Shown in pieces: positions 10,540-45,847 of a DNA stretch of 64,000 nucleotides. A program made the translations under genes and the position numbers. The notes under the pieces were generated by a model, which worked only from the letters and a program-made list of their open reading frames with translations, was not told the origin of the DNA and made no database searches. The stretch comes from Luteolibacter sp. Y139 (GTDB lineage: Bacteria > Verrucomicrobiota > Verrucomicrobiia > Verrucomicrobiales > Akkermansiaceae). The first letter of the stretch is position 1; each line of letters starts with the position of its first letter. The stretch is taken from assembly GCF_038066715.1 (NCBI RefSeq), contig NZ_JBBUKT010000019.1:1-64000 (forward strand), written 5' to 3'.

Positions 10540-10550
10540 CACCCCCCCTC

Positions 10551-18173: not shown

Positions 18174-18240
18174 TTGGGGGGAATGCACGGGTGCAGTATT
18201 TTTTAGGACCAGTGAGTAAGCAAGGGGAATTCTCGAACCT

Positions 18241-18590: not shown

Positions 18591-18633
18591 TTCCCGCCAC
18601 ATGGCCTGAAGCGATTCCGTCCGAGCTCCCCCC

Positions 18634-26415: not shown

Positions 26416-26967
26416 GTCATTTGCCCCGGAATTTCTGAATGTTCGCTTCTGTCGAATACGTTCCCAGGGAAACGGCCAAGCGGCCGGCGACCCCGCTCCG
26501 CTTTTTTCCGAAAAGGCCTAAGGATTCCCGATGTTGCACGCCATGCACGGGGTCACCACCGATGGTCACGAGCATCTCGCAAAGTCGTCACAACTCCGCT
26601 AACGGACGTTCAAATAAAAACTTCACATACGTAGTTTTTCTGTTAAATCCGAAGGCGCTGTTCGCTCCCACCCCCAGAACATCTCCCCCGCTTGAATTTC
26701 TGCTGGTCTCGCCCCTGTCCCACCCAGCCCTCGTGAAAGGGTCTGATCGTCGCGAAATCCCATGCAGGCCTGAAAGGCACGGGGAGGTCACCTCCTGCTC
26801 ACCCCCACCCAGGTCTTGGTCCAGAAATGGACCCAAATGACCAAGGGCGGCAGCATATTGAAATTCCCAAAGGTCTTCATCCGTTTCGAAAAAACCCAAC
26901 CCGAACCTGATCTCCAGCAAGAATTTCCCCTGATACCCGTTACTCCTCCACCCCCCCACCCCCCCGA
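26416..26967 (+). promoter_or_regulatory. Long untranslated leader with several inverted repeats
   Basis: No convincing gene lies in these 552 bases. Three structures stand out. AAAAACT (26616-26622) with AGTTTTT (26633-26639) is an A/T-rich stem like an attenuator. GGAGGT-C-ACCTCC (26783-26795) is a perfect short palindrome. GGTCCA-GAAA-TGGACC (26818-26833) is a stem with a GNRA-type tetraloop, whose left arm could instead pair with ACCAAG at 26840-26845. I did not match them to a known riboswitch class. Confidence 0.4.
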
Positions 26968-27837
26968 ATGATCACGCCCCCCATTGATCGGCCCCGCCGA
27001 TCGGCAGATCCTATTTCTTCCCGATATTTGGGAGCCGTCACTCTTGAGCGGCATCCCGAATACCGCACGGCAACTTCGCGCAAGCCTGCCAACGCAAGCT
27101 TCGTCCGGAGACCACCGCGTGCGGCCAAGCGGACCGCCATCCCCGCTCCCGCATGGAAGCGCGCGCTCGATGTGTCGCTGGTCGTGATGACCTTGCCCGT
27201 CTCGATCGTGTTGATCCTGGCCGTGACGCTGTGGATCCGCCTCGTTTCGCGCGGCCCGGCATTGTTCCTCCAGCAGCGCGTCGGCCACGGCGAGAAACTC
27301 TTCACCATCTTCAAATTCCGCACCATGCATCAGGGTGCGCCCACCCGGGACCACGAACTCCACGTGGCTCGTCTGGTCGACTCCGATCGCCCGATGGTGA
27401 AGCTCGACCAGCTTGGCGACAAGCGGATGATCCCCGGTGCCTGCTTCCTCCGCAGCACCGGCCTCGATGAACTCCCGCAGCTCTTCAATGTGCTGCGCGG
27501 CGAAATGAGCCTCGTCGGTCCGCGCCCCTGCATCCCGGGAGAACACGGCTTCTTCAACTCCGCCCAGCGCGAGCGCTTCCAGGTGCTGCCCGGCCTCACC
27601 GGCCTCTGGCAGGTCAGCGGTAAGAACCGCACCACCTTCCGCGAGATGGCCGCCTTCGATGTCGACTACGCCCAACGCTCCTCCCTCGCCCTCGACCTTT
27701 CCGTGCTCATGCGCACCCCGATGGCCCTGCGCCGGGAAATGAAGCAATGCTGCCAGCACCAGCGCCACTCCAAGGTCGCACGCCTGGATGAGCCGCTGCT
27801 GAACTACAGCGGGCAGCGCTGGGGAGACCGGTCATGA
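26968..27837 (+). CDS. Single-domain sugar phosphotransferase (initiating, PglC-like)
   Basis: 289 residues. It transfers a sugar phosphate from a nucleotide sugar to undecaprenyl phosphate, the first step of repeat-unit assembly. A basic, unstructured N-terminus (1-60) precedes one re-entrant membrane helix (about 68-92), then the catalytic domain: [23 protein letters not shown] with the DE dyad, [10 protein letters not shown], and [13 protein letters not shown] near 212-224. The unusual CIPGEHGFF after the GPRP motif replaces the common PELP sequence. It is the first gene after the long leader, follows two runs of seven C, and its stop overlaps the next start by four bases. A second, larger enzyme of the same superfamily is encoded at 32860. 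Confidence 0.88.
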
Positions 27838-28907
27838 AGGACACGCTCGGCGTCGGCATCGTCGGATGTGGCTACTGGGGGCCGAACTTGGCCCGCAACT
27901 TCAGCCACCACCCCGATGCCGAAGTCCGGGCCCTCTGCGACCTTGATCCCGAACGCCTCGAGCACGTCCGCCGACTGCATCCGGACGCGTGCATTTTCAC
28001 CGACTTCAAGCGCTTCCTCGCCACCACCTCGCTGGACGTGGTGGTGATCGCCACCCCGGTCAAAACCCACCACGCTCTCGCGAAGGCTGCCCTTCTCGCC
28101 GGCAAGCATGTGCTGGTCGAGAAGCCGATGGCCACGTCCGCCGCCGAGTGCGAGGACCTCGTCGCGATCGCCCGCAGCGAAGGCCTGACCCTCATGGTCG
28201 GCCACACCTACCTCTACTCCGAGCCCGTCCGCAAGATCGCCGACATCATCCGCTCCGGCGGCATCGGCGAGTTGAAATACATCAACTGCCAGCGCCTCAA
28301 TCTCGGCCTCTTCCAGCAAGACATCAATGTCGCCTGGGATCTCGCACCCCACGACCTCTCAATCATCCTCCACCTCATGGGGGAAGCACCCGAGCGGGTG
28401 AACTGCCAGGGCAACGCCCACATCACCCCCGGCGTCGAGGATGTCACGAACCTTTCCCTTGGCTTCAAGCGCCAGCGCTTCGCCACCATCCAGAGCAGTT
28501 GGCTGGAACCGCGGAAGGTCCGCCAGATGACCTTCGTCGGCACCCACAAGATGATCGTTTACGATGATCTCCAGCCGCTCGAAAAGATCCGCATCTACGA
28601 CGTGCGGGTCGAGTGTCCGCCCCACTACGACAGCTTCGCCGAGTTCCAGTACTCCTATCACTACGGCGATTGCTACCTGCCGCGGATCGAGCAGAGCGAG
28701 CCGCTGAAAACGATGTGCGCCCACTTCATCGAATGCGTGCGCGAGCAACGCCGGCCGCTCACCTGCGGACAGCGCGGCCTCGAGATCGTGAGGATCCTTG
28801 AAGCCAGCTCGGAGTCGCTGCGCGCCGGGGGCGGCCCCATCCAATTCACCGCCCGGCCTGCCTCTCCACGCCACATCGAACCGGAACCGGAGCCTCTTTC
28901 GTCATGA
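27834..28907 (+). CDS. Gfo/Idh/MocA dehydrogenase, WlbA-like
   Basis: 357 residues. The Rossmann loop is GIVGCGYWGPNLARN (about 8-22), whose GYWGPNL sequence is typical of the WlbA/WbpB group that oxidises UDP-N-acetylglucosaminuronate at C3. The catalytic EKP motif is in HVLVEKPM, with a following VGHTYLYSEPV helix and WDLAPHDLSIIL, which holds the conserved histidine. The start overlaps the sugar transferase stop (ATGA), and the stop overlaps the acetyltransferase start, so the three genes form one translational unit. I expect it to work with the acetyltransferase to make an acetamido sugar, but no aminotransferase lies in the locus. Confidence 0.85.
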   Translation: MKDTLGVGIVGCGYWGPNLARNFSHHPDAEVRALCDLDPERLEHVRRLHPDACIFTDFKRFLATTSLDVVVIATPVKTHHALAKAALLAGKHVLVEKPMATSAAECEDLVAIARSEGLTLMVGHTYLYSEPVRKIADIIRSGGIGELKYINCQRLNLGLFQQDINVAWDLAPHDLSIILHLMGEAPERVNCQGNAHITPGVEDVTNLSLGFKRQRFATIQSSWLEPRKVRQMTFVGTHKMIVYDDLQPLEKIRIYDVRVECPPHYDSFAEFQYSYHYGDCYLPRIEQSEPLKTMCAHFIECVREQRRPLTCGQRGLEIVRILEASSESLRAGGGPIQFTARPASPRHIEPEPEPLSS

Positions 28908-29434: not shown

Positions 29435-29545
29435 TGTCGGATGGCGAAGGAACTGCTTTTCATATCCTGCTGTTGATTTCCTCCCCCATAGACGCCTAGC
29501 GTCTTTCCTCCCCATCGACGCCCAGCGTCTTTCCCCCCCCTCGGA

Positions 29546-31744
29546 ATGCAAAAGACCGCCCCCACCCCCGCCAAAGGAGGCCTTGGCCTTCAGGACATCC
29601 TGTTCGTCCTCTTCAAGCACAAGTGGAAGATCCTTTTCCTGGGTCTGCTCGGTATTGGTGCTGCTGCCGGCCTCTACGTCACGCAGAAGCCGCTCTACGA
29701 ATCGCACGCCAAGATCCTCGTCACCCAGGTCATCCAGCGCGGCGGCCTCGAGGGCACCGATAGCCAGCTCGATGCCGGCGGCCGCGCGGGCGAGCAGGTG
29801 CTGAATACCGAGATGGCGATCATTCGCAGCGGCGCTCTCGCGGCCAAGGTCGCCGAGAGGCTGAAGGTTTCACCCCGCATGGTTCAGGGTGGCCTCGAAG
29901 TCGCCCCCGAGGCCCGCGGCAGCAATGTCCTCCTCATCACCTATCGCAATGCCGATGCCGAGCTCGCCCAGAACGTGCTCGCCGAGGTGGTGAAGCTTTA
30001 TCCGGACGAGCACCTTGAAGTGCGCCGCTCGCTCGGCTCCCTCGATTCGGTCTTCAAGCAGACCGACCTGATCAAGGAAAAGCTCGAGCAGACCGAAAAG
30101 GAACTCAACAAGCTGAAGGCCGATACCGGAATCGTCTCGGTCCGCGAGCAATCGCTCTCGCTCACCACCCAGCGCGACAAGACCCAGGGTGACATCGTCA
30201 CCGCCGAGGCGGAACTCGCCGCCCAGGAGTCCAGGGTCGAATCCCTGCAGGGCAAGCTTTCCGGTGAAGCCGCTGCGCCCGATGCGAAGGCCGGCTCCAA
30301 GCCCGCCACCGTCGCGCCGACCGCCGAACAAGTGGACGAATACCGCGAACTCTCCCGCCGCCTGGAGTATCTCCAGCAGCAGGATCTCGCCCTGCGCAGC
30401 AAGTTCGCTTCCGGAAATCCACAGGTCCTCCGCAATCAGCAGGACATCAACAACACCAAAGCGTCTCGCAATGCCCTGCTTGCCAAAGCTCCGGGCCTGG
30501 CGATGGAAGCCGTCGTCTCGCACGGTGAACCCGTCGCGAATCCCGCCGCCGAACTCGATCACGAGAAGGCCCTGGTAGGCTCGATCAAGGCTCGCATCGG
30601 TCGCTACAAGTCCCACATCACCGAGCTGGACACCAAGTTCAAGCAGCTCACCGAAGTCGAGCCCAAGGTCGCCGCCCTCGAACGCGAGCGCGAGATGTTG
30701 GACAATGAATACCGCCTGCTCGAAACCAACAGCAAGAAGGCCACCATCGACAGAACGGTCGATCGCGCGAATATCCCCGGCCTCACCGTCATGGATCAGC
30801 CGAGCCAGGCCGAGCTGAGCGTCAGCCAGACCACCAAGAAGGTCATGCTGGGACTCTGCGGCGGCGGCTTCGCCCTCGGACTTCTCGTCGCCTTCCTCCT
30901 CGAACTCGTCGTCGACCGCCGCATCGCCCGGCCCACCGAGATCGAAACCCGGCTCCAGGTGCCGCTCATGCTTTCCATCCCCTACGTGCGGCCGAAGAAC
31001 CGTGGCGCTGCGCTGATCGCAAACGACAGCAGCGAAGAAGACAACGGCGGCAAGCCGATGCTCCCCGCCGTGCGCAAGACCAATGGCTTCCCCGCCTTCC
31101 CGGGACGCACCGATCACTTCATCCACCCGTATTCGGAAGCGATCCGCGACCGCATCGTCTTCAACTTCCAGATCAACAACATGACCCACAAGCCCAAGCT
31201 GATGGCCGTGACTGGCCTCACCGCGGGCGCGGGCACTTCCACCATCGCCGCCGGCTTGGCCAAGGCCTTCTCCGAGGTCAATGGCGCGAAGGTGCTGCTG
31301 GTCGATCTGAATTCCTCCTATCCGGACGACAACCCGATGTTCGGCAACAAGCCGCTTCACTCGGTGGTCGGCGCCCTGCAGGCCGCACGCAATACCCGCT
31401 TCAAGGAAGGCGGCCAGAATCTCTACCTCGCCAGCGCAGCCGCGGCGAAGTCGGACTCCGCCACTCCGTTCGGCCCGATGCACCTTTACGAACTCCTCCC
31501 GCATTTCCGGGCCAGCGAGTTCGACTACGTCATCTTCGACATGCCGCCGATGGGCCAGACCAGCCCCACGCTCGCCATGGCAGGCCTGATGGACAAGGTC
31601 CTCCTCGTCGTCGACGGCGAAGACACCAGCCGCGACGCCCTCAAGTGGGGCTACTCGGAACTGATCAAGGGCCGCGCCGACGTCTCCTGCGTCTTCAACA
31701 AGGCCCGCTCCCATGCCCCGCGTTGGGTCGCCGGGGAAATCTGA
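29546..31744 (+). CDS. Wzc-like chain-length protein with degenerate P-loop
   Basis: 732 residues. It controls chain length and export of exopolysaccharide at the inner membrane. Layout: helix about 26-46, Wzz-type periplasmic region about 47-430 with long coiled coils (190-230 and 370-400), second helix about 432-455 and a cytoplasmic ATPase-like domain about 520-732. The P-loop region reads GLTAGAGTST (557-566): residue 564 is Thr where tyrosine kinases of this family have the Lys of GKST. The Walker A' (VLLVDLNSSYP) lacks the usual DADLR pattern; Walker B is YVIFDMPP. There is no C-terminal tyrosine cluster. It is likely a structural co-polymerase without kinase activity. The start follows a C8 run. 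Confidence 0.85.
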   Translation: MQKTAPTPAKGGLGLQDILFVLFKHKWKILFLGLLGIGAAAGLYVTQKPLYESHAKILVTQVIQRGGLEGTDSQLDAGGRAGEQVLNTEMAIIRSGALAAKVAERLKVSPRMVQGGLEVAPEARGSNVLLITYRNADAELAQNVLAEVVKLYPDEHLEVRRSLGSLDSVFKQTDLIKEKLEQTEKELNKLKADTGIVSVREQSLSLTTQRDKTQGDIVTAEAELAAQESRVESLQGKLSGEAAAPDAKAGSKPATVAPTAEQVDEYRELSRRLEYLQQQDLALRSKFASGNPQVLRNQQDINNTKASRNALLAKAPGLAMEAVVSHGEPVANPAAELDHEKALVGSIKARIGRYKSHITELDTKFKQLTEVEPKVAALEREREMLDNEYRLLETNSKKATIDRTVDRANIPGLTVMDQPSQAELSVSQTTKKVMLGLCGGGFALGLLVAFLLELVVDRRIARPTEIETRLQVPLMLSIPYVRPKNRGAALIANDSSEEDNGGKPMLPAVRKTNGFPAFPGRTDHFIHPYSEAIRDRIVFNFQINNMTHKPKLMAVTGLTAGAGTSTIAAGLAKAFSEVNGAKVLLVDLNSSYPDDNPMFGNKPLHSVVGALQAARNTRFKEGGQNLYLASAAAAKSDSATPFGPMHLYELLPHFRASEFDYVIFDMPPMGQTSPTLAMAGLMDKVLLVVDGEDTSRDALKWGYSELIKGRADVSCVFNKARSHAPRWVAGEI

Positions 31745-31810
31745 TCACCCACTCTCGCCGCTTCACCCTTTGAGCACCCGGATTGAACCTTCCCCCCCAC
31801 TCATCCGACG

Positions 31811-32806
31811 ATGCCGAAGCAACTGGCTTCCTCTTATGAGGCGATGGCGACCGGCTCGCCCGGCTTGCTGACCCGGGCTTACTACCGGATCAAGCCGTTC
31901 ATCCCTCGCCGGCTGCGCTGGGCTCTCCGCCGCAGCCGCGCGCGGTCGATCGTGCGTGGTTGCCACGGCACCTGGCCGATCGACGTGACCTCCGCCACGC
32001 CGCCCGCCCACTGGCCCGGCTGGCCTCAGGGGAACGAGTTCGCCTTCGTCATCACCCATGATGTCGAATCGCGCTCCGGGGTGTCGAAAGCCCGGGACCT
32101 CGCCCAGCTTGAGGTCGCCCTTGGCCTGCGCTCCTCGTTCAACTTCATCCCGGAAGGCCCCTACGATGATCCAGCCGAGCTGCGCGCCTGGCTCGAAGCA
32201 CGCGGCTTCGAAATCGGCGTCCACGACCTCAATCACGACGGCCGGCTCTACGGCTCCCGCCACGGCTTCCGCCAAAAGGCCGGCCGCATCAATCGCTACC
32301 TCAAGGACTGGGGCGCGGTCGGCTTCCGCTCCGGATTCATGCTCCGCCAGCTCGATTGGATCCACGATCTCAAGGTCGCCTACGACGCCTCCACCTTCGA
32401 TACCGACCCCTTCGAGCCCCAGCCGGAAGGCTCCGGCACCATCTTCCCCTTCCTCGTCGAGGCGGATGGCGATGAACCCGGCTACGTCGAACTCCCCTAC
32501 ACCCTGCCCCAGGACTCCACCCTGTTCCTCCTGCTCGGCGAGGAAACGGTCGCGATCTGGAAGCAAAAGCTCGACTGGATCGCCCGCCAGGGCGGCCTCG
32601 CCCTCGTCAATATTCATCCCGACTACATGGATTTCTCCGGCAAGCGGACCTCCTCCTGCTACCCGCATCTGCTGGTGAAGGAACTCTTCGAGCACCTCTG
32701 CAGCCGCTACCGGGGCAAATTCTGGAATCCGCTGGCGAAAGATCTCGCGTGCTGGTTCCGCCAACATGCGGTACCTTTGCCCGCTGCCGATGATCCGGCT
32801 TGTTGA
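31811..32806 (+). CDS. NodB-type polysaccharide deacetylase
   Basis: 331 residues. It is expected to remove acetyl groups from a hexosamine in the polymer or its lipid-linked precursor. NodB motifs: D84 in ITHDVE, and H138 and H142 in GVHDLNH; these three would bind the metal. The third motif is visible as GFRSGFMLRQLDW. The N-terminal 60 residues are basic, without a clear signal peptide, so it may act in the cytoplasm or be membrane-associated through the amphipathic start. The family includes the deacetylases found beside Wzx/Wzy loci. It follows the Wzc-like gene by 66 bases. Confidence 0.82.
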   Translation: MPKQLASSYEAMATGSPGLLTRAYYRIKPFIPRRLRWALRRSRARSIVRGCHGTWPIDVTSATPPAHWPGWPQGNEFAFVITHDVESRSGVSKARDLAQLEVALGLRSSFNFIPEGPYDDPAELRAWLEARGFEIGVHDLNHDGRLYGSRHGFRQKAGRINRYLKDWGAVGFRSGFMLRQLDWIHDLKVAYDASTFDTDPFEPQPEGSGTIFPFLVEADGDEPGYVELPYTLPQDSTLFLLLGEETVAIWKQKLDWIARQGGLALVNIHPDYMDFSGKRTSSCYPHLLVKELFEHLCSRYRGKFWNPLAKDLACWFRQHAVPLPAADDPAC

Positions 32807-32859
32807 CGCCCCTCCCCCCTGCTAAAACGCCCTCACCCCCCCATCCCCCCGCCCCCCCA

Positions 32860-34305
32860 ATGATTCGCCTTCGCCACAAGGTGCTGATCCATAGTTTCCG
32901 CTTGATTGACCAGCTCATGCTGGTGGCAGCGGCAGCCCTGATCATCTACTTCCGTTCGGACATCGCCCGCTTGGGCGGTCACACGGCCACGCCCGCCACC
33001 TATCGGATGGCGGATACCATCGGCATGCTCTTCCTGGCCTTTGGCTGGGTCGGTATCTTCGCCTATACCATCCGCTACAAGGCCGACCGCTTTGTCGCGC
33101 TGACCACCCAGATCAAGGATCTCATCAAGGCCACCACCCTGGCGGCCTTCTGGCTGATGATCGTCAGCGGGATCTTCTCGGTCGGCAGCTTCAATACCCT
33201 CAATATCCTCGTCTTCTGGACCGGGGTCACTGCGACCGGAGTCGTCAGCCGCCTGTTCCTCCGGCTGGTCCTCATGAGCGCACGGCGCTCCGGCTACAAC
33301 TACCGCTACCTGCTCATCATCGGCGCGAACTCGCGTGCCAGCGAGGTGGCTGCCAAGGTCGATGCCAAGCCCGAGCTCGGCTACAAGATCGTCGGCTTCG
33401 TCGCGGAAAACGACAGCGCTCGCCAGGCCTGGGATGGACAGCCCCATCACCGCGCCGAAGTGCTCGGAATGCTCGATGACCTGCAAGGCGTCCTCAAGCG
33501 CGAGCGGGTCGATGAAATGATGGTCTGCCTCCCGGTCGAGTCCCGTTTCAGTGACATCGTCACCATCATCCAGCACGCCCGCGACCTCGGCGTCGTCGTG
33601 CGCCTGATGCCGGACGTGAAGGACGACACGCTCTTCAAGAACGTCCACCTCGAGGAATTCGATGGCCAGCATGTCGTCACCATGTTCCGCGAGCAGATGC
33701 TGCTGCAGCTCCTCGCCAAGCGCATGGTGGATGCCTCCCTCTCCCTCGCCGCACTGATTGTGCTCGCCCCGCTGATGATCGTGGTGGCGGTGCTGATCAA
33801 GATCACCAGCCCCGGCCCCGTCTTCTTCGCCCAGGACCGCGTCGGCATGAACCAGCGCAGCTTCCGCATCTACAAGTTCCGCTCCATGGTGGTGGACGCC
33901 GAAGCCAGGAAGAAGGATCTCGCCCATCTCAACGAAATTGCCGATGGCCCGGCCTTCAAGATGAAGAACGACCCGCGGATCACCCGGATCGGCAGCTTCA
34001 TCCGCAAGACCAGCATCGACGAATTGCCACAGCTTTTCAACGTGCTGCACGGCGAGATGAGCCTCGTCGGCCCGCGCCCGCCGCTTCCCGATGAGGTGAA
34101 GAAGTACGAATGGCTCTTCCGCAAGCGCCTCTCCGTGAAGCCCGGCATCACCTGCGTCTGGCAGATCAGCGGCCGTAGCAACACGACCTTCGAGCGCTGG
34201 ATGGAGATGGACAGCGAGTACATCGACAACTGGTCGATCTGGCTCGATTTCAAGATCCTCGTCAAAACCGTGCCCGCCGTCTTGTTCGGCCGCGGAGCGT
34301 CATGA
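32860..34305 (+). CDS. Polyprenyl glycosylphosphotransferase (WbaP/EpsL type)
   Basis: 481 residues from the ATG at 32860, just after a run of seven C. This is the large form of the initiating enzyme: four N-terminal helices (about 15-35, 50-72, 88-110, 118-140), a Rossmann-like CoA_binding_3 domain (about 148-255, [15 protein letters not shown]), a membrane segment at about 293-318 ([20 protein letters not shown]) and the catalytic domain with [36 protein letters not shown] and [13 protein letters not shown]. It would start repeat-unit synthesis on undecaprenyl phosphate, most often with glucose or galactose phosphate. Two initiating enzymes in one locus is unusual. Confidence 0.9.
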
Positions 34306-34344
34306 TGCATCCCCGCCGATGATGACAGTCGTCTGGTGACCACC

Positions 34345-34902
34345 ATGCCCTCCCTTTCCAAAGTCCTGAATTTCGCCGGGTCCCTCATCGATCCCCGGTC
34401 GTATCTTCACATCCTGAAAATGATCCACTACAGCGGCTACAGTCATGTCCGCGAACGTGGCAAGATCACGAAGGGCAAGGGCACGGGCATCGCCCCGAAT
34501 GCCTCGCTGCGAAACGGCGAGCGCATCCAGATGGGCCACGACTGTCACATCGGCGAGCGTTGTTACCTGTGGGCCGGCGATTCCACCGGCCGCATCATCA
34601 TCGGGAACTTCGTCTCGCTCGCGCCCGAAGTTTTCATCACTGCTTCAGACTATCGCTTCGAAGCCGGCAAACCCTTCCGGCAACAACCGAAGAACGAACG
34701 CGACATCCGCATCGGAAATGACGTGTGGCTCGGTGCCCGCGTCGTCATCACCGCCGGCGTCACCATCGGTGACGGCTGCATCGTCGGTGCCGGAGCTGTC
34801 GTCACCAAAGATCTTCCCGCCGGCTCGATCGCCGCGGGAGTCCCTGCCCGGGTCATCGGAACACGAGAACCCGTAACTGCTGGTCAATCATCCCCCCCAT
34901 GA
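34345..34902 (+). CDS. Left-handed beta-helix acetyltransferase (WcaF/maltose acetyltransferase-like)
   Basis: 185 residues from the ATG at 34345; a GTG at 34336 would add three. The hexapeptide-repeat core runs from about 75 to 170, with [36 protein letters not shown], and the signature [36 protein letters not shown] followed by AGVPARVIG. It likely O-acetylates a sugar of the repeat unit using acetyl-CoA. The last residues (SSPP) are encoded by the C7 run that also precedes the next start, so the stop overlaps the ATG of the following glycosyltransferase. Confidence 0.82.
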
Positions 34903-35849
34903 AAGCCGACGTAGCCATCGTCATCGTGTCCTACAATTCGCGGGACCACATCGGAGCCTGCCTCGAAAGCGTCTTCGCCCAGAGGAAGTCCGTCACCCAA
35001 CAGGTCATCGTGGTCGATAACGACTCCCGCGATGATACCGTCAATTTCATCCGCGAGAACTTCCCGGAAGTCGAACTGGTGCTGCCCGGCGCCAACCTCG
35101 GCTTTGCCAAGGGCGTGAACCTCGGCGTGAAGCACTCGAATGCGGAGTATGTGCTGCTCCTCAATCCGGATACCGAGATCCTCGACCACGCCGTCGATGT
35201 GATCGTCGACTTCGCCCGCAAGAATCCGAATCACGGCCTCTACGGTGGCCGCACCCTTCGTCCGGATGGCAGCCTCGAGCCGTCTTCCTGCTGGGGTCGC
35301 CCCACGCTGTGGAGCATGACCTTGTTCGCCTTCGGTCTCACCACCATCGCGCCGAAAAACCGCTTCCTCGATCCCGAGTCGCTCGGCTCCTGGCAACGCG
35401 ACACCGTCCGTGAAGTCGGCGTCATCACCGGCTGCTTTCTGCTCTCCCCCACGGAGGTGTGGAACCAGCTCGGCGGTCTCGACGAGCGCTACTTCATGTA
35501 TGGCGAGGATGCCGACCTGGCCATGCGCGCCCACGCCGCCGGCTACCGCCCGGTCATCTGCCCGGACGCGACCCTCATCCACGAAGTCGGCGCCTGCTCC
35601 GACACGCCGGTCCACAAGACGATGCTGCTCTACCGCGGCAAGGCGAGCTTGGTCCGCACGCACTGGACCGGCCTCGCCCAATGGCTCGGCCTGTTCTTCC
35701 TCGCCACCGGCACCGGCCTCCGCGCCGCCATCAGCAAGGTGAAGGGCTCCAACCCGGACTCTTCCAATAGCGCCGCCGCCCGCTGGCAGACGCTGTGGTC
35801 GGAGCGCAACAAGTGGATCTGCGGCTACAGCAGCAGCCCCACCGCCTGA
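34899..35849 (+). CDS. Family 2 glycosyltransferase (rhamnosyltransferase-like)
   Basis: 316 residues. The GT-A fold starts with VAIVIVSYNSRDHIGACLESVFAQ, then VVDNDSRDDTV, a GANLGFAKGVNLG segment, and LLLNPDTEIL, where the NPD sequence takes the place of the DXD metal site. The acceptor-side motif GCFLLSPTEVWNQLGGLDERYFMYGEDADLAMRA is typical of rhamnosyltransferases related to WbbL. This agrees with the rhamnose synthesis genes at 54-58 kb, though the donor remains inferred. The start codon follows a C7 run with no other ribosome site. Confidence 0.85.
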   Translation: MKADVAIVIVSYNSRDHIGACLESVFAQRKSVTQQVIVVDNDSRDDTVNFIRENFPEVELVLPGANLGFAKGVNLGVKHSNAEYVLLLNPDTEILDHAVDVIVDFARKNPNHGLYGGRTLRPDGSLEPSSCWGRPTLWSMTLFAFGLTTIAPKNRFLDPESLGSWQRDTVREVGVITGCFLLSPTEVWNQLGGLDERYFMYGEDADLAMRAHAAGYRPVICPDATLIHEVGACSDTPVHKTMLLYRGKASLVRTHWTGLAQWLGLFFLATGTGLRAAISKVKGSNPDSSNSAAARWQTLWSERNKWICGYSSSPTA

Positions 35850-35871
35850 TCCAGCGAACCAACGCCCCCCC

Positions 35872-37085: not shown

Positions 37086-39254
37086 ATGAGAATCAAAGCC
37101 TACTTTTCCCTAGCTCTAGCATTGCTCGCCACGCCGTTCACGGCGTCGGCCAAGCCAACCCGCGTCCCATCCTTCGGCCCCAATGGCACCCATTGGCCGG
37201 AATTGATCCCGACGCCGTTCATGTACGACAACACGGTGTCGAACATCGTCAACGTCCCCTGCAACTGGACGGCCATCAAGAACGCCATCCAGGCCGTCAC
37301 CGCGGCCCAAGCCAATAGCGGCACGCTCATTTTGGTCGCTCCCGGCACTCTTTCCGGCTCCGGCACTTCGAGTGGTGCCACCCCGGTTCTCGAAAGCATC
37401 GGCTCCACCAGCTGGGGCCAGCGCGTCACCGTCGCTCCTCGCGACGGCTACGGCAGCGTGAAGTTCCAAAACGGCGTCCGCTTCGTGAAAGTCTACGGCG
37501 TCTGCTTCGCCGGCTTCGAATCGATCGATATCAGCGGCGTCAAAATGCACGGTTGCCAACGCTCCGCGCTTGCATGGATCAAATGCACCGGCCACCTCGG
37601 CATCTACGGCACCGATGGCTTCTTGACCCAGGGCATCGAGGTTGTGGAAGTCGTCCAGCCCAACAGCTACGTGGTCAATGACGACTCGGCGGACCTCTAT
37701 GCCGGTGGCGGCGGCTACGATAGCTGGCGCTTCGACGGCTGCTATCACGCACCCCGCTTCTTTGAAGTTCCCTACACCGGTGGCAAGCCGCACACCGACA
37801 CCTTCCAGATGGCAGCGGCCGGCGGCGGCAGCTACAGCAATATCACCTTGCGCGATAGCGCCTACTTCTCGTCCAACAACTGCTCGATCCAGACCGGCAA
37901 CGTGGACGGGCTTTTCCTCGAGAAGTGCTACGTGGTCTCGGGCGACGTCTCGCTTTCCCGCTACCCCCACCTTCCCGGTGGTGCCACCGAGGCAACCTCA
38001 AACGCTTTCAACGGTTCCGGCAAGAATTTCACCGCCAAGGACTCTGTCTTCATCGGCGGCATGGGCCTGAATGACACCGACTCGAGCCGCCCGTGGGCCT
38101 CCGTCCAGAATACCAAGACCAACAAGAGCTATGGCAGCCTCAGTGCTCCCCAGTCCGGATCCTGGACCGTGGACACCACTCTCAATGAGAACAACTCGGG
38201 CATGCCGCCCATCCCTACTGACACCTACCTGAACGACATCTGGAAGAACCCGGGCGCGACCACCAGCGTCCAGCGCCCCGTCTTCATCCCGGCCCCCGGC
38301 ACCTACAATGCCACCCAGCAGGTGACCATGACCTGCTCCACCTCGGGCTCGACCATCTATTACACCACCGACGGCAGCACCCCGACCACGTCGTCCACCC
38401 GCTACACGGGACCGGTCACCGTTTCGGCGACCACCTCCATCCGCGCCTTCGCGACTGCCAACGGCCTCGATCCTTCGGGAGTCCAGCCCGGCGACTACGT
38501 GATCGCCAACCAGGTGAACGCCCCGGTCATCTCTCCGAACGGCGGCTTCTTCAGCACGGCGCAGTCGGTGACCATCACCACCTCCACCTCGGGTGCCGCG
38601 ATCCGCTACACCTTGGACGGCAGCACGCCTTCCGCGTCCTCCACGCTCTACAGCGGCCCGGTCGTGATTTCCGCGTCCTCCACGCTGAAGGCGATCGGCG
38701 TCAAGGCGGGTGCCTTGGACAGCACCGTAACCGCAGCGAACTTCGGCATCGGCAATACCTACGTCTCGAGCGAGGCATGGACCAATATCGTGGTTCCAAC
38801 CCAGAACTCGCGCTTCACCGTCCGGTGGAATGCGACTCCTGATGGTCCCTTCATCGACGCCGTGACCGGCCTGGCACCGGCCGCCGTGAACGACTACAAG
38901 GATCTCGCCTGCATCGCCCGGTTCAATATCAACGGCACGATCGACGCCCGCAACGGCGGTGCCTATGCCGCGCTCGCCACGCTGAACTATTCCGCGGGAA
39001 CGATCTACCGCTTCCAGATGGACGTGGATTTCTCGACCAAGAAATACTCGGTGACCGTGACCCCTGACGGCGCGGCACCGGTCGTGATCGCGCAGAACTA
39101 CAGCTTCCGGACCGAGCAGGCCGCAGCTACCAGCTTCAATCACATGGCCCTCGTCGCCCTCCAAGGCGGCACGCACACCGTGTCCGACGTGGTCTTCGGC
39201 ACCTCGACGCCGCCGTCCGCTCCGCAAAACCTGCGGGTGACGTCGAATCCCTGA
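37086..39254 (+). CDS. Secreted beta-helix protein with two chitobiase-type C-terminal repeats
   Basis: 722 residues. Signal peptide about 1-22 (LALALLATPFTASA). Residues about 60-400 have the short repetitive strands of a right-handed parallel beta-helix (FVKVYGVCFAGFESIDISGVKMHGC, SNITLRDSAYFSSNNCSIQTGNVDGLFLEKC), a fold of polysaccharide lyases and epimerases; no catalytic set is certain. Two CHB_HEX_C-type beta domains follow (about 405-475 and 485-555), each with a YTxDGSTP motif, then a jelly-roll-like region to about 705. Placement inside the exopolysaccharide locus suggests a matrix-binding or polymer-modifying surface protein. It has its own A/T-rich upstream region and a strong terminator after it. 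Confidence 0.75.
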   Translation: MRIKAYFSLALALLATPFTASAKPTRVPSFGPNGTHWPELIPTPFMYDNTVSNIVNVPCNWTAIKNAIQAVTAAQANSGTLILVAPGTLSGSGTSSGATPVLESIGSTSWGQRVTVAPRDGYGSVKFQNGVRFVKVYGVCFAGFESIDISGVKMHGCQRSALAWIKCTGHLGIYGTDGFLTQGIEVVEVVQPNSYVVNDDSADLYAGGGGYDSWRFDGCYHAPRFFEVPYTGGKPHTDTFQMAAAGGGSYSNITLRDSAYFSSNNCSIQTGNVDGLFLEKCYVVSGDVSLSRYPHLPGGATEATSNAFNGSGKNFTAKDSVFIGGMGLNDTDSSRPWASVQNTKTNKSYGSLSAPQSGSWTVDTTLNENNSGMPPIPTDTYLNDIWKNPGATTSVQRPVFIPAPGTYNATQQVTMTCSTSGSTIYYTTDGSTPTTSSTRYTGPVTVSATTSIRAFATANGLDPSGVQPGDYVIANQVNAPVISPNGGFFSTAQSVTITTSTSGAAIRYTLDGSTPSASSTLYSGPVVISASSTLKAIGVKAGALDSTVTAANFGIGNTYVSSEAWTNIVVPTQNSRFTVRWNATPDGPFIDAVTGLAPAAVNDYKDLACIARFNINGTIDARNGGAYAALATLNYSAGTIYRFQMDVDFSTKKYSVTVTPDGAAPVVIAQNYSFRTEQAAATSFNHMALVALQGGTHTVSDVVFGTSTPPSAPQNLRVTSNP

Positions 39255-39273
39255 GGCTTCGCTTCCACTCTAT

Positions 39274-39307
39274 CGGCGGCACCGCGACGGGCGTGGTGCC
39301 GCCGTTT
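39274..39307 (+). terminator. Terminator after the beta-helix gene
   Basis: CGGCGGCACC (39274-39283) pairs with GGTGCCGCCG (39295-39304), ten pairs, followed by TTTC. It starts 20 bases after the stop codon. Confidence 0.7.
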
Positions 39308-39332
39308 CATCGCCCTCCCTCCCCTTTTTCCC

Positions 39333-40514
39333 GTGAATCCCCCCCCCGTCCGAGTTCTCTACAGTTTCCCGCACAAGCTAGGTGCGGGACGCATCTGCAC
39401 CACGGCCTGGCATCAGGTCGAGGGAGCCTCCCGCGCTGGCGCGCAGGTCACCGTGTTCGCGGGATCGCAGGTCCGCCCGGTGAATGACCGGATCAAGGTC
39501 AAGACGACGCTTTCCGTCGGCAAGCTGCGCGTGCCTTACAAGCTCATCGGTCGCGATCTCGCCTGCCACTGGCACGACATCGCCACCTCGATGTGGCTGA
39601 ATGCCCACCATCGCGAGGTCGATGTGGTGCATGGCTGGCCGCTCGGCTCGATCCGCACCATCCGCACCGCGAAGCGCCATGGCATCCCCGTGGTGCTGGA
39701 GCGGCCGAACGCACACACCGCCTATGCCTACGAGGAAGTCGAGCGGGAGAACCGCGACGTCGGCATCGTGCTGCCGGACAATCATGACCACGAGGTCGAC
39801 CCCAAGCGCCTCGCGCTGGAGGAGACCGAATACGCCGAGGCCGACTATCTACTATGCCCCTCGGACTTCGTGGCAAAGACCTTCATCGATCGCGGCTTCA
39901 CCGAATCGAAGCTGGTGCGCCACCAGTACGGCTACGACTTTTCCCGCTTCAGCCCGCAACCACCGAATGCCGCCGCCCATGACGGCCTCGTCATGATCTA
40001 CGCCGGCGTGGTCGAGCCGCGCAAGGGACTGCACCACGCGCTGAAGGCGTGGCTCGCCTCGGGTGCCCATGAAAAGGGCACCTTCATGGTCTGCGGCGAA
40101 TTCGTCCCCGGCTATCGCGAGCGCCTGGAGCCAATGCTTTCCCACCCCAGCGTGAAGATCATGGGCCATCGTACCGACCTGCCGGACCTCATGCGCCAGG
40201 CCGATGTCTTCGTGCTCTCCTCGGTCGAGGAAGGCAGCGCCCTTGTCACCTACGAAGCCCGCGGCTCGGGCTGCGTGCTGCTCGTTTCCGATGCCTCCGG
40301 CGCGGTCTGCGAACACATGCAAAACGGCCTCATCCATCCGCTCCGCGACGTGGCGGAATTGACGGCCCATCTCCGTCTGTTAGATAGCGACCGCGTGCTG
40401 CTGGAAAAACTCCGCGCGGCATCCGTCGCCGACTTGGACCAGCTGACGTGGGACCAAGCCGGCCGCCGTTTGGAAGAAGTCTATCGCAGTGTCCGGCGCA
40501 CCCACGCCGCTTGA
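39333..40514 (+). CDS. Family 4 glycosyltransferase
   Basis: 393 residues from a GTG at 39333, with a run of nine C as codons 3-5. The GT-B fold is visible: an N-terminal half with RVLYSFPHKLGAGRI, VDVVHGWPLGS and PVVLERPNAHT; and a C-terminal nucleotide-sugar half with MIYAGVVEPRKGLHHALKAW, VKIMGHRTDLPDLMRQADVFVLSSVEEGSALVTYEARGSG, the E-x7-E motif of GT4. It probably adds one sugar to the lipid-linked repeat unit on the cytoplasmic face. Donor unknown. It begins a run of closely spaced genes to 45.8 kb. Confidence 0.87.
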   Translation: MNPPPVRVLYSFPHKLGAGRICTTAWHQVEGASRAGAQVTVFAGSQVRPVNDRIKVKTTLSVGKLRVPYKLIGRDLACHWHDIATSMWLNAHHREVDVVHGWPLGSIRTIRTAKRHGIPVVLERPNAHTAYAYEEVERENRDVGIVLPDNHDHEVDPKRLALEETEYAEADYLLCPSDFVAKTFIDRGFTESKLVRHQYGYDFSRFSPQPPNAAAHDGLVMIYAGVVEPRKGLHHALKAWLASGAHEKGTFMVCGEFVPGYRERLEPMLSHPSVKIMGHRTDLPDLMRQADVFVLSSVEEGSALVTYEARGSGCVLLVSDASGAVCEHMQNGLIHPLRDVAELTAHLRLLDSDRVLLEKLRAASVADLDQLTWDQAGRRLEEVYRSVRRTHAA

Positions 40515-40550
40515 GCCCGTCACCCTTCCCTTTCTCCTGTTCCCCTTCTC

Positions 40551-41879: not shown

Positions 41880-41921
41880 GAAACCACCCCTGACCTCCGG
41901 AAGATCCCAATCCCCCCCCGA

Positions 41922-43379
41922 ATGAAATCTCCCGACACCGAACAAGACCTCATGCCACCCGCGACGCGATCCCGCGCCGCGGAACGCGCCGTGGCCCCTG
42001 CGGGGACCGGCGTGGCCATGAAGAAGATCTTGTTCATCGCCTACCACTTCCCGCCTGCGGGTGGCGGTGGCGTTCAGCGTTCGCTGAAGTTTGTCAAATA
42101 CCTGCCGGAAGCCGGCTACCTGCCCATCGTGCTGACCATCGAGGCCCCGGACGGCCGCCGCTGGACGCCGAAGGACCAGGCGCTGATGGACGAGGTGCCC
42201 GCCGGGGTGGAGATCCATCGCGTCTCGATCCCCGATGAGGTCCACACGCCCGGCAAGCTGGAGCGCGCGGCCCGCGAGTTGTTAGGCCTGCGCAGCCGCT
42301 TCGGCCGGACGTGGATGGAGCGCGCCATCGAGGCGGGAACGCGCATCGCCGAGCAAGAAAAGCCGGACCTGATCTTCGTCACGATGTCGCCCTTCGACGG
42401 GGCCGATGCCGCGGCCGAGATCTCCCGTCGCACCGGCATCCCCTGGGTCGCCGATCTCCGCGACCCGTGGGCGCTGGATGAATTCCAGCTGCACCGCACC
42501 GGCCTCCATCGCGAGCTGGAAAAGGCCCAGATGGAGCGTTCGCTGGAGAGCGCCGCGCTGGTCATCATGAACACGCCGGAGTCCGCTCGCCGCGTGAGGG
42601 AGACCATGCCCCGGATCGATCCGGCCAAGGTCGTCAGCCTGACCAATGGCTACGATGCCGAGGACTTCTCCGGCGAGGTCCCGCCGATCGGCGGAGGGAA
42701 GTTCAATATCGTCCACTCCGGCTATTTCCACGCCGAGCAGGGGCTGATGGAGCGGTCCCGCCAGCGCCAGTATCAGCTGTTAGGCCGCACCATTCCCGGC
42801 GTCGAGCGTCTCCCGCGCTCGCACTATTACCTGCTCCAGGCACTGGAGCAGTGGCTGAAGGAAGCTCCGGAAATCGCGAACGAGGTCCGCATGCACTGCG
42901 TCGGCGTTCTTTCGAAGGCCGACCAGGCCCTCATCGACGCCTCCCCGGCCAAGGAACTCTTCGTCTGCTCCGGCTACCTTAGCCACGCCGAGTGCCTCCG
43001 CTTCGTCCGCGGAGCCGATTTGCTGTTCCTGCCGATGCACAAGATGCCGGCAGGCATGAAGGCCGGCCTCGTGCCCGGGAAAACCTACGAATACATGGCC
43101 GCCGGGCGCCCGGTAGTGGCCACCCTCCCGGAAAGCGACGCCCGCGATTTCCTCACCCAGGCCGGCACCGGAGTCTTCTCCGCTCCGGGCGATGTGCACG
43201 GCCTGCTTGCAGCCTTGAAAGCCCAGCACGCGAAGTGGAAGACTGGCGGCAGGTCCTGCGATTGGAACGGCGAATTCGTCCGCCAGTTCGAGCGCAAGAA
43301 CCTCACCGCAAGACTCGCCGAATTCCTCACTCAAGTCCGCCGAGACACTTCCCTCCCCCCGATTTTGAATGCAGGCTGA
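41922..43379 (+). CDS. Family 4 glycosyltransferase
   Basis: 485 residues from the ATG at 41922, which follows eight C; an internal ATG at 42018 starts right at the conserved N-terminus MKKILFIAYHFPPAGGGGVQR and may be the true start. GT-B features: the GGGGVQRSLKFVKYLPE loop, LIFVTMSPFDGADAA, the WVADLRDPWALDEF motif, and a C-terminal half with LLFLPMHKMPAGMKAGLVPGKTYEYMAAGRPVVATLPESD. These resemble GT4 enzymes of capsule and slime loci. The end overlaps the flippase start by 11 bases. Confidence 0.82.
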   Translation: MKSPDTEQDLMPPATRSRAAERAVAPAGTGVAMKKILFIAYHFPPAGGGGVQRSLKFVKYLPEAGYLPIVLTIEAPDGRRWTPKDQALMDEVPAGVEIHRVSIPDEVHTPGKLERAARELLGLRSRFGRTWMERAIEAGTRIAEQEKPDLIFVTMSPFDGADAAAEISRRTGIPWVADLRDPWALDEFQLHRTGLHRELEKAQMERSLESAALVIMNTPESARRVRETMPRIDPAKVVSLTNGYDAEDFSGEVPPIGGGKFNIVHSGYFHAEQGLMERSRQRQYQLLGRTIPGVERLPRSHYYLLQALEQWLKEAPEIANEVRMHCVGVLSKADQALIDASPAKELFVCSGYLSHAECLRFVRGADLLFLPMHKMPAGMKAGLVPGKTYEYMAAGRPVVATLPESDARDFLTQAGTGVFSAPGDVHGLLAALKAQHAKWKTGGRSCDWNGEFVRQFERKNLTARLAEFLTQVRRDTSLPPILNAG

Positions 43380-44928
43380 AAGCGTCATCGCCGAACCGAC
43401 TCCATCCCGACCGAAACGCCGCGACCCCTTCGAGGCGCCGGACGTCTCGGGCAACCTGCGCCGCAGCTCCGTCCGCGGGGCGTCTTTCATGTCGTTCTCG
43501 CGCATCGCGGGCATTGGCCTGCGGTTCCTTTCCACCGGCATCCTCGCCCGCCTCGTCACCCAGGACAGCTTCGGCCTGATCACCATGACGGCGGTCATCT
43601 CCGGCTTCCTCACCATCTTCACGGACGTCGGACTCACCCAGGCCACCATCCAGCGGGAGCAAATCAACCACCGCCAGATCTCGACCCTGTTCTGGATCAA
43701 TGTCGCGCTGGGCCTGCTCCTCGCGGCCATCTTCGCGGCGTCCGCGCCCTTGGTCGCGCAATTCTATCACCGGAGCGAGCTGCTCACCATCATCCCGATT
43801 CTCGCGTTGAGCTTCGTCTTCGGCAGCCTGGGGCTCCAGCACACCGCGCTACTCACGCGCAACCAACGCTACCCGCTGCTGGCTGGGGTCGAGGTCTTCT
43901 CGTCGCTCGCCGGCGTCGTGGTCGCGGTGTGGATGGCCAAGCAAGGGGGAAAGGAAATGGGCTACTGGCCATTGGTCGCCCTCGCGGTGGTCCCGGCATT
44001 CGCCAAATCCGCCGCCGCATGGATCGCCCTGCGCTGGGTTCCCAGCCTTCCCTCGCGCGGGAATGGCGTGAAGAGCATGGTGAAATTCGGCGGCGATGTC
44101 CTCGGGTTCAACATCATGAACTACTTCTCGCGGCAGGCCGATACCATGCTGATCTCGAAGTACTGCGGCGCGATCCCCGGCACCTTCTACGACAAGGCCT
44201 ACAATCTCCTCCTGATGCCGGTCGGCCAAATCAACGGCCCTCTCGGTTCCGTCAGCATCCCGGCCCTGTCCCGCCTCCAAAAGGAGCCGGACCGTTTCCG
44301 CCGCTACTTCCTCAATTCCATCCAGCTCGTCTGCTCGCTCAGCCTGCCGGTCATTTCCGCCATCACGCTCTTTGCCGATGAAGTCGTGCGGGTCTGGCTG
44401 GGTGAAAGCTGGGCCGCCTCGGCCACACTCTTCCGTCTCCTCGCCGCCGCCGCACTCATCGGCGGCATTTCGAATCCGGCCGGCTGGGTCCTCATTTCGC
44501 TGGGCATGACCAAGCGCTACCGCTGGCTCGGCTTCGCAAACTCGGTGGTCATTGTCACCGCCTTCGTCATCGGCCTCCTGCTGGGCCCGAAGGAACCCGG
44601 CCAGATCGGTTCATCCCAGGGCGTGGCGACCGCCTACTCGGTGGTCATGATCCTCACCTTCATCCCCTACTGGGCATGGGCGCTGAAGGACACGCCGGTG
44701 AAGCTCCGCTCGGTGCTGGTCACCATGCTGCCGCCCGCCATTTCCTGCCTCCCCGCCGCCGCCGTCGCATGGTGGATGAAGGGCCTCGCCGCCGCTCATG
44801 CGAATCCCTGGCTGTGGACCATCGCCGCCATGGCTTCCTTCGGCATCGTGTATGCCGCCACGCTGCTCTTCGGTTTCAAGAAGCTGGATTTCTTCCGCCG
44901 CATTGCCAGCGAGTTCAGATCACGCTAA
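43369..44928 (+). CDS. Wzx-like lipid-linked repeat-unit flippase
   Basis: 519 residues; a polysaccharide transporter of the MOP superfamily. After a 30-residue hydrophilic start, about twelve to fourteen helices follow, with family features FMSFSRIAGIGLRFLSTGILARLVTQDSFGLITMT near the N-terminus and SRQADTMLISKYCGAIPGTFYDKAYNLLLMP in the middle, the signature of the Wzx/WzxC group. It would move undecaprenyl-linked repeat units across the inner membrane for the Wzy-like polymerase. It overlaps the preceding glycosyltransferase by 11 bases and precedes a GT2 gene by 22 bases. Confidence 0.88.
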   Translation: MQAESVIAEPTPSRPKRRDPFEAPDVSGNLRRSSVRGASFMSFSRIAGIGLRFLSTGILARLVTQDSFGLITMTAVISGFLTIFTDVGLTQATIQREQINHRQISTLFWINVALGLLLAAIFAASAPLVAQFYHRSELLTIIPILALSFVFGSLGLQHTALLTRNQRYPLLAGVEVFSSLAGVVVAVWMAKQGGKEMGYWPLVALAVVPAFAKSAAAWIALRWVPSLPSRGNGVKSMVKFGGDVLGFNIMNYFSRQADTMLISKYCGAIPGTFYDKAYNLLLMPVGQINGPLGSVSIPALSRLQKEPDRFRRYFLNSIQLVCSLSLPVISAITLFADEVVRVWLGESWAASATLFRLLAAAALIGGISNPAGWVLISLGMTKRYRWLGFANSVVIVTAFVIGLLLGPKEPGQIGSSQGVATAYSVVMILTFIPYWAWALKDTPVKLRSVLVTMLPPAISCLPAAAVAWWMKGLAAAHANPWLWTIAAMASFGIVYAATLLFGFKKLDFFRRIASEFRSR

Positions 44929-44950
44929 CCTCACGATCATTCCCCCCCCG

Positions 44951-45847
44951 ATGGTCATTATCATTCCCACCTGCCAACGCGGCGAACTCCTCGTGAGGAC
45001 GCTCCAGTGTCTGGTCGATGCCGATCTTCCCGACTCCGTGACCCGCGTCATGGTCGTGGAAAACGGCAAGAAGGATCAGGCCGAGTCCAAGGCCGCCAGC
45101 TTCGCCGACAAGCTCCCGGTCGAGTATCTCTACACACCGGTCGGCAGCAAATGCGCTGCCTTGAATCTCGCGCTCGAGTCCTGTGACGGCGAGTTCGTCG
45201 TCTTCTTCGACGATGACGTGCGCATCGATCCGGGCTGCGTCCGCGCCTATGCCGAAGCCGCCAAGGGCAAGACCGGCGGCGAGTTCTACGCTGGCAAGTG
45301 CAATGTCGACTACGACGTGCCGCCGCCCGAGTGGCTCAAGCACTACCTTCCCTACTCCGCGAAGGGCTGGAGCTACGGTGAGACGATCCGCGACCTGAAT
45401 GAGCCGCTCGCTCTCGGCTTCAACTGGGCCGCCTTTGCCGACGACATCAAGAAGGCCGGCAACTTCAATCCCGACATCGGCCCCGGCCGCCTCATCTCCG
45501 TCGGCGATGAAACCGACCTCCAGAAGGTCATGCTCGATCAAGGCGTGAAGGGCGTCTACCTGCCCGCCGGCCTGGTTTGGCACCACGTCCCCGAGGACCG
45601 CTGCTCCACCGCATGGACCTTGGAGCGCAATCGCCGCATGGGCCTGCTCGTTGGCCACAAGCTGGCCGCCGCGCCCGCGCCGAAGCGCTTCAGCAAGGCC
45701 GCCATGGCTTGGGGCAAGATCGTCGGCCTCGGCGTCGTGACCAAGATCGGCAAGGCCCTGCTCAGCGACGCCAGACACTTCCACTACCAGCAGCGGCGCC
45801 ACTGGAACCTCGGCGTCTGGCAAGGCCACCAAGGCTGCGGTTCCTAA
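44951..45847 (+). CDS. Family 2 glycosyltransferase
   Basis: 298 residues from the ATG at 44951, directly after eight C and one G. GT-A features: MVIIIPTCQRGELLVRTLQCL, VMVVENGKKDQAES, GSKCAALNLALESC, and the metal site VFFDDDVRID near residue 90. GDETDLQKVMLD and VWHHVPEDRCST in the C-terminal half are the usual acidic and histidine motifs of the fold. It lacks membrane segments. It ends the run of genes from 39.3 kb; a 449-bp gap follows. Confidence 0.85.
   Translation: MVIIIPTCQRGELLVRTLQCLVDADLPDSVTRVMVVENGKKDQAESKAASFADKLPVEYLYTPVGSKCAALNLALESCDGEFVVFFDDDVRIDPGCVRAYAEAAKGKTGGEFYAGKCNVDYDVPPPEWLKHYLPYSAKGWSYGETIRDLNEPLALGFNWAAFADDIKKAGNFNPDIGPGRLISVGDETDLQKVMLDQGVKGVYLPAGLVWHHVPEDRCSTAWTLERNRRMGLLVGHKLAAAPAPKRFSKAAMAWGKIVGLGVVTKIGKALLSDARHFHYQQRRHWNLGVWQGHQGCGS

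Follow-up and report, generated by a model that had tools for sequence, protein, structure and literature searches.

The exopolysaccharide cluster and its C tracts

The stretch analyzed here (the window, 64,000 nucleotides; G000:C19:1-64000) belongs to a genome of 7.1 Mb in 31 contigs (G000) and carries an exopolysaccharide (EPS) cluster at 26.9-58.7 kb, in which runs of six or more C stand at many start codons. The genome was placed in Verrucomicrobiota via homologues of the sugar transferase encoded at 32833-34305, whose close matches share 77-81% identity (L116, L117, L119); Haloferula sp. BvORR071 is the sole named isolate among them, the rest being metagenome-assembled genomes. The cluster encodes sugar transferases, hexapeptide transferases, glycosyltransferases, RmlD, and further nucleotide-sugar enzymes, together with a chain-length determinant, a flippase, an export protein, and large surface-type proteins. 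Our counts revealed one locus marked by a repeated start-site tract, against roughly 1000 sampled genes that are nearly free of it.

All of the C runs reported in the first-pass annotation were recovered at their reported positions. They are given below with the number of bases between run and start codon (gap). Unless stated otherwise, conservation is the number of genomes, among our own and nine same-genus relatives, with six or more consecutive C (C6+) in positions -25..-1 of the start.

26951-26965, plus strand: two C7 runs before the sugar-transferase gene 26968-27837, the nearer one (26959-26965) at gap 2, with an extra C6 inside the gene at 26977-26982; tract in 9/10 genomes, the miss (G015) being a 40% match at a contig start, taken for a paralogue.
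29533-29540, plus strand: C8, gap 5, before the chain-length determinant gene 29546-31744 (Wzz domain; XrtA/EpsF-type matches weak and under cut-off); tract in 8/9 genomes.
31792-31798, plus strand: C7, gap 12, before 31811-32806, a gene for which the family search gave no match; tract in 3/6 genomes.
32814-32858, plus strand: four C runs (6, 7, 6, and 7) before the sugar-transferase gene 32860-34305, the last (32852-32858) at gap 1; tract in 9/10 genomes, in which the longest run measures 7-16 C; the exception (G015) is cut off by a contig start.
34892-34898, plus strand: C7, gap 0, at the GT2 gene 34899-35849, within the end of the preceding gene; tract in 10/10 genomes, always six or seven C.
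35865-35871, plus strand: C7, gap 0, at the GT2 gene 35872-36759; tract in only 3/10 genomes.
39339-39347, plus strand: C9 just within the GT4-type gene 39333-40514; C6+ before or shortly after the start in 9/9 genomes, upstream in 5/9.
41912-41919, plus strand: C8, gap 2, before the GT4-type gene 41922-43379; upstream in only 2/10 genomes.
43355-43360, plus strand: C6, gap 8, before the flippase-type gene 43369-44928 (Polysacc_synt), within the end of the preceding gene; tract in 6/9 genomes.
44942-44949, plus strand: C8, gap 1, before the GT2 gene 44951-45847; tract in 3/9 genomes.
46253-46294, plus strand: three C6 runs before the malectin/fn3 protein gene 46297-54150 (2617 residues), the last (46289-46294) at gap 2; tract in 7/8 genomes.
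54256-54263, plus strand: C8 just within the RmlD gene 54248-55153; C6+ before or shortly after the start in 8/8 genomes, upstream in 3/8.
10542-10548, plus strand: C7, gap 2, before the Gfo/Idh/MocA gene 10551-11630.
18176-18181, minus strand: C6, gap 2, before the large gene 13233-18173.
18628-18633, plus strand: C6, gap 0, at the FG-GAP repeat gene 18634-21780.

Further orthologous starts carried the tract in some genomes, with C6+ upstream of 40551 in 5/10, upstream of 25141 in 3/8 (7/8 when the 30 bases after the start were included), and upstream of 55209 and 56362 in 2/8 each. The genes starting at 18173 (minus strand) and 18634 (plus strand), which lie outside the main cluster, are divergent, and both encode large proteins with a C6 at the start. 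The clustered C6+ runs at 32814-32858 and 26951-26982 could form a G-quadruplex on the template strand or an i-motif on the coding strand.

Excess of C runs at the starts of one locus

On the plus strand of the window, CCCCCC occurred 53 times versus 14.6 expected from the second-order composition of a sample of the rest of the genome (1.6 of 7.1 Mb), and C7 occurred 20 times versus 3.2 expected. Within that sample itself, C6 was rarer than expected (215 vs 365) and G6 was as frequent as expected (126 vs 129). The plus strand of the window was richer in C than in G throughout, and between 24 and 58.8 kb this strand carried no G6+ run. The density of C6+ runs in this interval reached 25.5 per kb in leaders, taken as the 25 bases up to a start (14 runs in 550 bases), compared with 6.7 per kb in codons 2-10 (4 in 594), 2.6 per kb in other intergenic DNA (5 in 1911), and 0.16 per kb in other coding DNA (5 in 31,746). 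The first-pass annotation had pointed out that C runs might prove equally common in intergenic DNA away from starts, and the densities of 25.5 and 2.6 per kb show that they are not. Overall, these counts confirmed the C runs as a non-random start-site feature far above chance.

The same concentration was evident from called genes, for which we used our own coding-potential script, where leader sequence plays no part in start choice. C6+ occurred within -20..-1 at 10/37 window genes versus 8/1098 genes elsewhere (Fisher p ~1e-11), and C7+ at 8/37 versus 2/1098 (Fisher p ~1e-11). The starts 26968, 18634, and 46297 fall outside the 10/37 count, as the caller missed them and chose further-in starts (27172, 18691, and 46381); start 46297 is backed by orthologues, and 26968 is backed in the two nearest species. 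Both this comparison and that of clusters with control stretches in relatives, given below, were made on unselected gene sets. Among 35 scored glycosyltransferase-domain matches outside the contig, some of which share a gene, only one carried C6+ within -25..+20 (seven of the original 42 were dropped owing to a frame at the locus edge or a low coding score), ruling out a general mark of glycosyltransferase genes. C6+ was likewise found at 0/8 called genes of a single 3.3-kb region containing the ribosomal L14 gene, the other seven of which were not identified by the family search; at these eight genes, therefore, the tract was not seen as a mark of high expression. A search of the window with Rfam yielded no RNA family at gathering score.

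Across the whole genome, the pattern C7-to-RTG gave 100 matches versus 50 for the backwards control, overlaps counted, and 14 of the 100 lay on the window contig, which makes up 1.1% of the genome. Inspection of 31 of these loci as gene starts (partly overlapping and mostly on contigs 1 to 4) yielded two convincing starts (L243 and L245) and one doubtful one (L231). A second small group of C7 starts was observed at L110:2613-7148 (G000:C3:342.6-347.1 kb), upstream of glycosyltransferase matches on the same contig. Its members encode an unknown protein of 141 residues, an RfaH/UpxY-like NusG-family protein with the C7 just inside its gene, and a nucleotide-sugar epimerase. This NusG-family protein, the only second member of its family in the genome, scores under the curated cut-offs of the paralogue models. 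A tie between the tracts and the NusG paralogue was rejected, as the second NusG-family match does not track GT2 presence among the 17 relatives and was found in 7/8 genus members that lack a close GT2 relative.

Shine-Dalgarno signals are scarce throughout the genome

At the 1135 called starts, G was not elevated at -12 to -6, that is, the purine peak of a Shine-Dalgarno (SD) sequence was lacking. The base bias consisted instead of C, at 0.58 at -1, 0.48 at -2, and 0.33-0.38 from -9 to -3, along with elevated A downstream of the start codon; in the control stretches of the relatives, C reached 0.63 at -1. The words GGAG, GAGG, and AGGA were found at 93/1135 starts in -18..-5 versus 113/1135 in -48..-35, and SD-like words in the relatives stood at 13/238 starts at SD distance versus 24/238 further upstream. 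The 3' end of the 16S rRNA retains the CCTCC (CCUCC) anti-SD, ggatcacctcctttct (L115). By its leaders and by its 16S tail alike, the genome is thus SD-scarce with an intact anti-SD. The first-pass annotation was therefore right that the C-run leaders lack an SD sequence, yet the whole genome shares this property. Its proposal that C runs replace the SD sequence did not hold, since SD signals are absent genome-wide and C6+ stands in -20..-1 at just 8/1098 sampled starts elsewhere. This rarity outside the locus rules out the C tracts as the genome's SD substitute and indicates that they mark this locus. Near the ribosomal L14 gene (L351:2458-2868), an AGGAGG was observed eight bases before an ATG situated nine bases ahead of the called start, and individual genes may still rely on SD pairing.

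Conservation and turnover in related genomes

A search of 96 other genomes with the GT2 protein of 34899 gave ten strong matches, nine of them in the 17 same-genus genomes (72-96% identity) and one in a genome from another family (G088; 40%). In the nine relatives, C6+ occurred within -20..-1 at 54/186 cluster genes versus 3/238 genes of control stretches, the latter taken from eight of the nine relatives (G015 gave none). The cluster of the outgroup G088 had C6+ at 0/21 genes. Over all 20 starts in the ten genomes, C6+ was present in -25..-1 at 80/176, and in -25..-1 or +4..+30 at 94/176, with the G015 rows for 26968 and 32860 scored as misses both here and in the per-start sums; the same two rows were excluded from the set of 117 starts and the 16-position proline count described below. 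The feature is thus conserved within the genus with turnover of its position and length. Several tracts were retained in 7-10 of the ten genomes, and the side of the start on which the tract lies, before it or just after it, switched between species at 39333 (9/9) and 54248 (8/8). EpsE-type orthologues outside the genus with an alignable start (L120-L123, L131, L132, L134, and L142) had no tract. A loose C6-to-ATG screen of 80 loci gave 4, 3, and 3 matches (control 0) in L137 (Myxococcota, GC 0.76), L161, and L179, respectively.

When genes were sorted by the gap to the preceding gene, the tract was found at 7/33 with an overlap, 13/49 with 1-30 bases, 27/68 with 31-120 bases, and 15/54 with more than 120 bases. 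Translational coupling as a rule for the tract-free genes was rejected, as the gap classes showed merely a weak trend. The cluster gene 37086-39254, tract-free in the ten genomes, displayed in most relatives a leader with a different common pattern, aaccgaacctgttcATGAGA-like. Apart from the cluster, the minus-strand neighbors 2464-3726 and 3905-5167, both of 420 amino acids and with leaders alike, look like a tandem duplicate.

Signs of selection on the run itself

The tract persisted while the flanking leader changed, and at 34899 it persisted though the stop of the preceding gene shifts. The longest upstream runs in the relatives (all 20 starts, n=156) dipped below six C, with 26 leaders at four, 10 at five, 25 at six, and 27 at seven, compared with 117, 41, 7, and 2, respectively, at starts elsewhere in our genome (n=1098). 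C6+ was present upstream at 70/156 starts of the relatives, whereas 300 composition-preserving shuffles of each leader averaged 27 and never exceeded 38. Elsewhere in our genome, the 8 observed C6+ were fewer than the 34/1098 in shuffled leaders. Codon choice near the start was biased in the same direction, in that CCC made up 75/116 of the proline codons in codons 2-10 (16 of the 20 positions, a set also used for one run-length table) and 80/130 with all 20 positions counted. The share of CCC was 31% among 1328 proline codons further into the same genes (codons 31-230), and 41% among 749 proline codons near the start (codons 2-10) of other genes.

In a set of 117 orthologous starts, the bases -20..-1 comprised 52-59% C and 10-12% G. 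These 117 represent 15 start positions picked after the C-rich leaders had been seen, and the set omits 5/20 positions, four of which (27834, 28904, 37086, and 57296) are without a tract in any genome. At the window's own 15 selected starts, the C excess reached further upstream than in the relatives. The mean minimum free energy was -4.8 kcal/mol at 12 hand-picked C-run starts versus -9.7 kcal/mol at 400 random other starts. The suggestion of the first-pass annotation that an unstructured C leader drives initiation without SD pairing was thus borne out as regards weak structure and the lack of SD, but not in its premise that C runs stand in for SD in this genome.

Interpretation of the C tracts

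We tentatively propose, at close to an even chance of being right, that the tracts form an RNA element under selection in the initiation region and work as a post-transcriptional operator coordinating the cistrons of the cluster. The C tracts would all be copies of a single cis element kept by selection on the EPS mRNA, namely six or more unpaired C in a row, typically six or seven, no further than about 25 bases from the start codon of many cistrons; the gene layout suggests that the cluster genes may share one mRNA. The tract lies in the footprint of the initiating ribosome on either side of the start, deep in the cluster, and in places within the gene before it. This placement makes separate promoters for the individual genes unlikely and would make an RNA element acting on initiation the natural reading. 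Such an element would influence translation initiation or how accessible the initiation region is. Its reader might be a C-specific partner, either a poly(C)-binding protein or a small RNA rich in G, in competition with the 30S subunit or in support of it. The concentration at one locus, the lack of tracts at the eight L14-region genes and, but for 1/35, at other glycosyltransferase genes, and the dip below six C argue for a specific reader over a general enhancer. A homopolymer code, in which one trans factor (a poly(C)-specific RNA-binding protein or a G-rich small RNA) sets the translation of many EPS cistrons, is possible but somewhat unlikely. If true, such a code would work in bacteria that have largely abandoned SD pairing, and would offer a first handle on the post-transcriptional control of EPS, and hence of aggregation and biofilm, in this part of Verrucomicrobiota.

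Several observations weigh against the operator. No candidate for the trans partner emerged from the G6+ count (plus strand, 24-58.8 kb) or the Rfam search (window). Within the same cluster, 27834, 28904, 37086, and 57296 had C6+ in no genome, and at 35872, 41922, 44951, 55209, and 56362 the tract was found in a minority of genomes. The two convincing C7 starts at L110 show that the feature is not strictly confined to one operon, and same-genus genomes without a close GT2 relative, notably G006 and G016, displayed many C7-to-ATG matches, with 56 forward and 9 reverse versus a control of 6 and 9 in G006, and 52 forward and 47 reverse versus 10 and 28 in G016. Although these totals (65 vs 15 and 99 vs 38 backwards) are inflated by overlapping matches, the tract may mark other loci too in these genomes. 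In our genome, the loose C6-to-ATG pattern occurred 275 times versus 80 backwards, an imperfect control, a sign of some genome-wide excess such as the overall preference for C at -1 and -2 should produce. Avoidance of C runs at other starts was dropped as a sign of specificity, as these starts avoid C runs no more than other DNA does. Finally, the species are related by descent, and the cross-genome counts are therefore not independent.

The main rival to the operator is a C-rich non-SD ribosome-binding site, in which the tract helps the 30S subunit through pairing with G-rich 16S segments, S1 binding, or an open start, and no regulator is involved. We judge this unlikely, though far from negligible. 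It fits the genome-wide absence of SD sequences despite an intact anti-SD, the weak C preference before all starts (control stretches of the relatives included), the genome-wide C6-to-ATG excess, and the C-rich leader without SD that stands right before the start at the 117 selected starts; the low structure at C-run starts fits this site and the operator equally. In vitro selection has also yielded C-rich non-SD sites complementary to 16S rRNA, but according to the excerpted text of that study, pure poly-C is poor and C-rich sites are inefficient in Escherichia coli cells (PMC3310771). A site of this kind would moreover have to be reconciled with the 1090/1098 other starts and the 8/8 genes around ribosomal L14 that lack C6+. 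At 39333 and 54248 the run falls within the gene, a position that a general enhancer need not take, and mere C-richness would not predict the dip at five C. The contrast between locus and genome allows both the operator and the C-rich ribosome-binding site to be tested directly, with a bearing on how bacteria without SD usage select and regulate their starts.

Contingency tracts, in which slippage alters spacing or frame and thereby varies EPS expression, had been suggested in the first-pass annotation, and the homopolymer runs do stand at surface-polysaccharide genes, some within coding sequence. Lengths differ among the close species G000, G011, and G008 (8, 9, and 9 at 29546; 8, 7, and 4 at 44951), and one orthologue of 32860 (G007) has 16 C. 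The suggestion went unsupported in our analysis, as an in-frame start stood at the expected place in 9/9 genomes (39333) and 8/8 genomes (54248), and all nine C7+ tracts within genes of the relatives lay in open frames with none short, in a test that is partly blind because the aligned protein fixed the frame in which starts were picked. Runs mostly measure just six or seven bases, a length held in all ten genomes at 34899, and the majority lie upstream of the start, where gain or loss of one base leaves the frame intact; phase variation is accordingly quite improbable. Rho prefers C-rich, G-poor RNA, and C-rich, G-poor segments at each start, as in the composition of the 117 selected leaders, might let Rho end the operon when initiation fails. 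A rut site is a C-rich, G-poor stretch of 60-80 bases or more, for which the stretch of ~20-25 bases in the relatives is short, though the C excess at the window's own selected starts extends further upstream; Rho is also not known to need a minimum of six consecutive C. Rho loading is very improbable. A functionless by-product of mutation or recombination, through homopolymer growth or as gene-border seams of cassette exchange, would agree with the prevalence of C over G along the plus strand of the window and with the variable length of the long tracts. This explanation, very improbable indeed, is already weakened by a C-run density that in the 25 bases preceding starts is ~10-fold that of the remaining intergenic DNA there, by a CCC bias limited to the first codons, and by the rest of the sample, where C runs fall below second-order expectation and G runs do not.

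Comparison with known systems

Among the open-access matches listed, none described C tracts at the starts of EPS genes from Verrucomicrobiota, most subscription papers lying outside that scope. The poly-C/G contingency loci of Neisseria (a genus treated in PMC5084427) and Campylobacter are homopolymeric C or G tracts at surface-structure genes, a likeness to the present tracts; unlike at those loci, the ten genomes here showed no broken frames, and the tracts are short, mostly constant, and spread over many neighboring genes. NusG paralogues of the RfaH/UpxY/LoaP type act on polysaccharide operons, and our genome has one by family match (below curated cut-offs), near two C7 starts. This paralogue nevertheless lies at a locus other than the EPS cluster, and a second NusG-family match is also present in 7/8 genus members without a close GT2 relative.

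Akkermansia and some other Verrucomicrobia have been described as SD-scarce with a conserved anti-SD (PMC10783764), and in Bacteroidia the anti-SD tail is reported to be sequestered on the 30S subunit (PMC9976891). Our genome resembles the SD-scarce Bacteroidia and Verrucomicrobia in retaining CCUCC in its 16S rRNA and in having leaders without an SD peak; the trait there is one of whole genomes, and the excerpted text of PMC10783764 makes no mention of a locus-specific C tract. Using ribosome display in an E. coli system, Barendt et al. (2012) selected C-rich 18-base non-SD leaders (PMC3310771), which share with the present starts a C-rich leader without SD directly upstream of AUG. Those sites were obtained in vitro, and the excerpted text of that work mentions no natural operon in which a C6-C7 element recurs. 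The Helicobacter small RNA RepG reads a G-repeat in an mRNA leader and controls a lipopolysaccharide glycosyltransferase gene (PMC8295292), which, as far as the excerpted text goes, indicates that a homopolymer leader can serve as a graded operator. Both systems would combine a homopolymer in the mRNA leader with a trans partner (here only proposed) and a polysaccharide gene as target, but RepG targets a G-repeat in one leader whose length sets the output, whereas the element described here consists of C and recurs at many cistrons.

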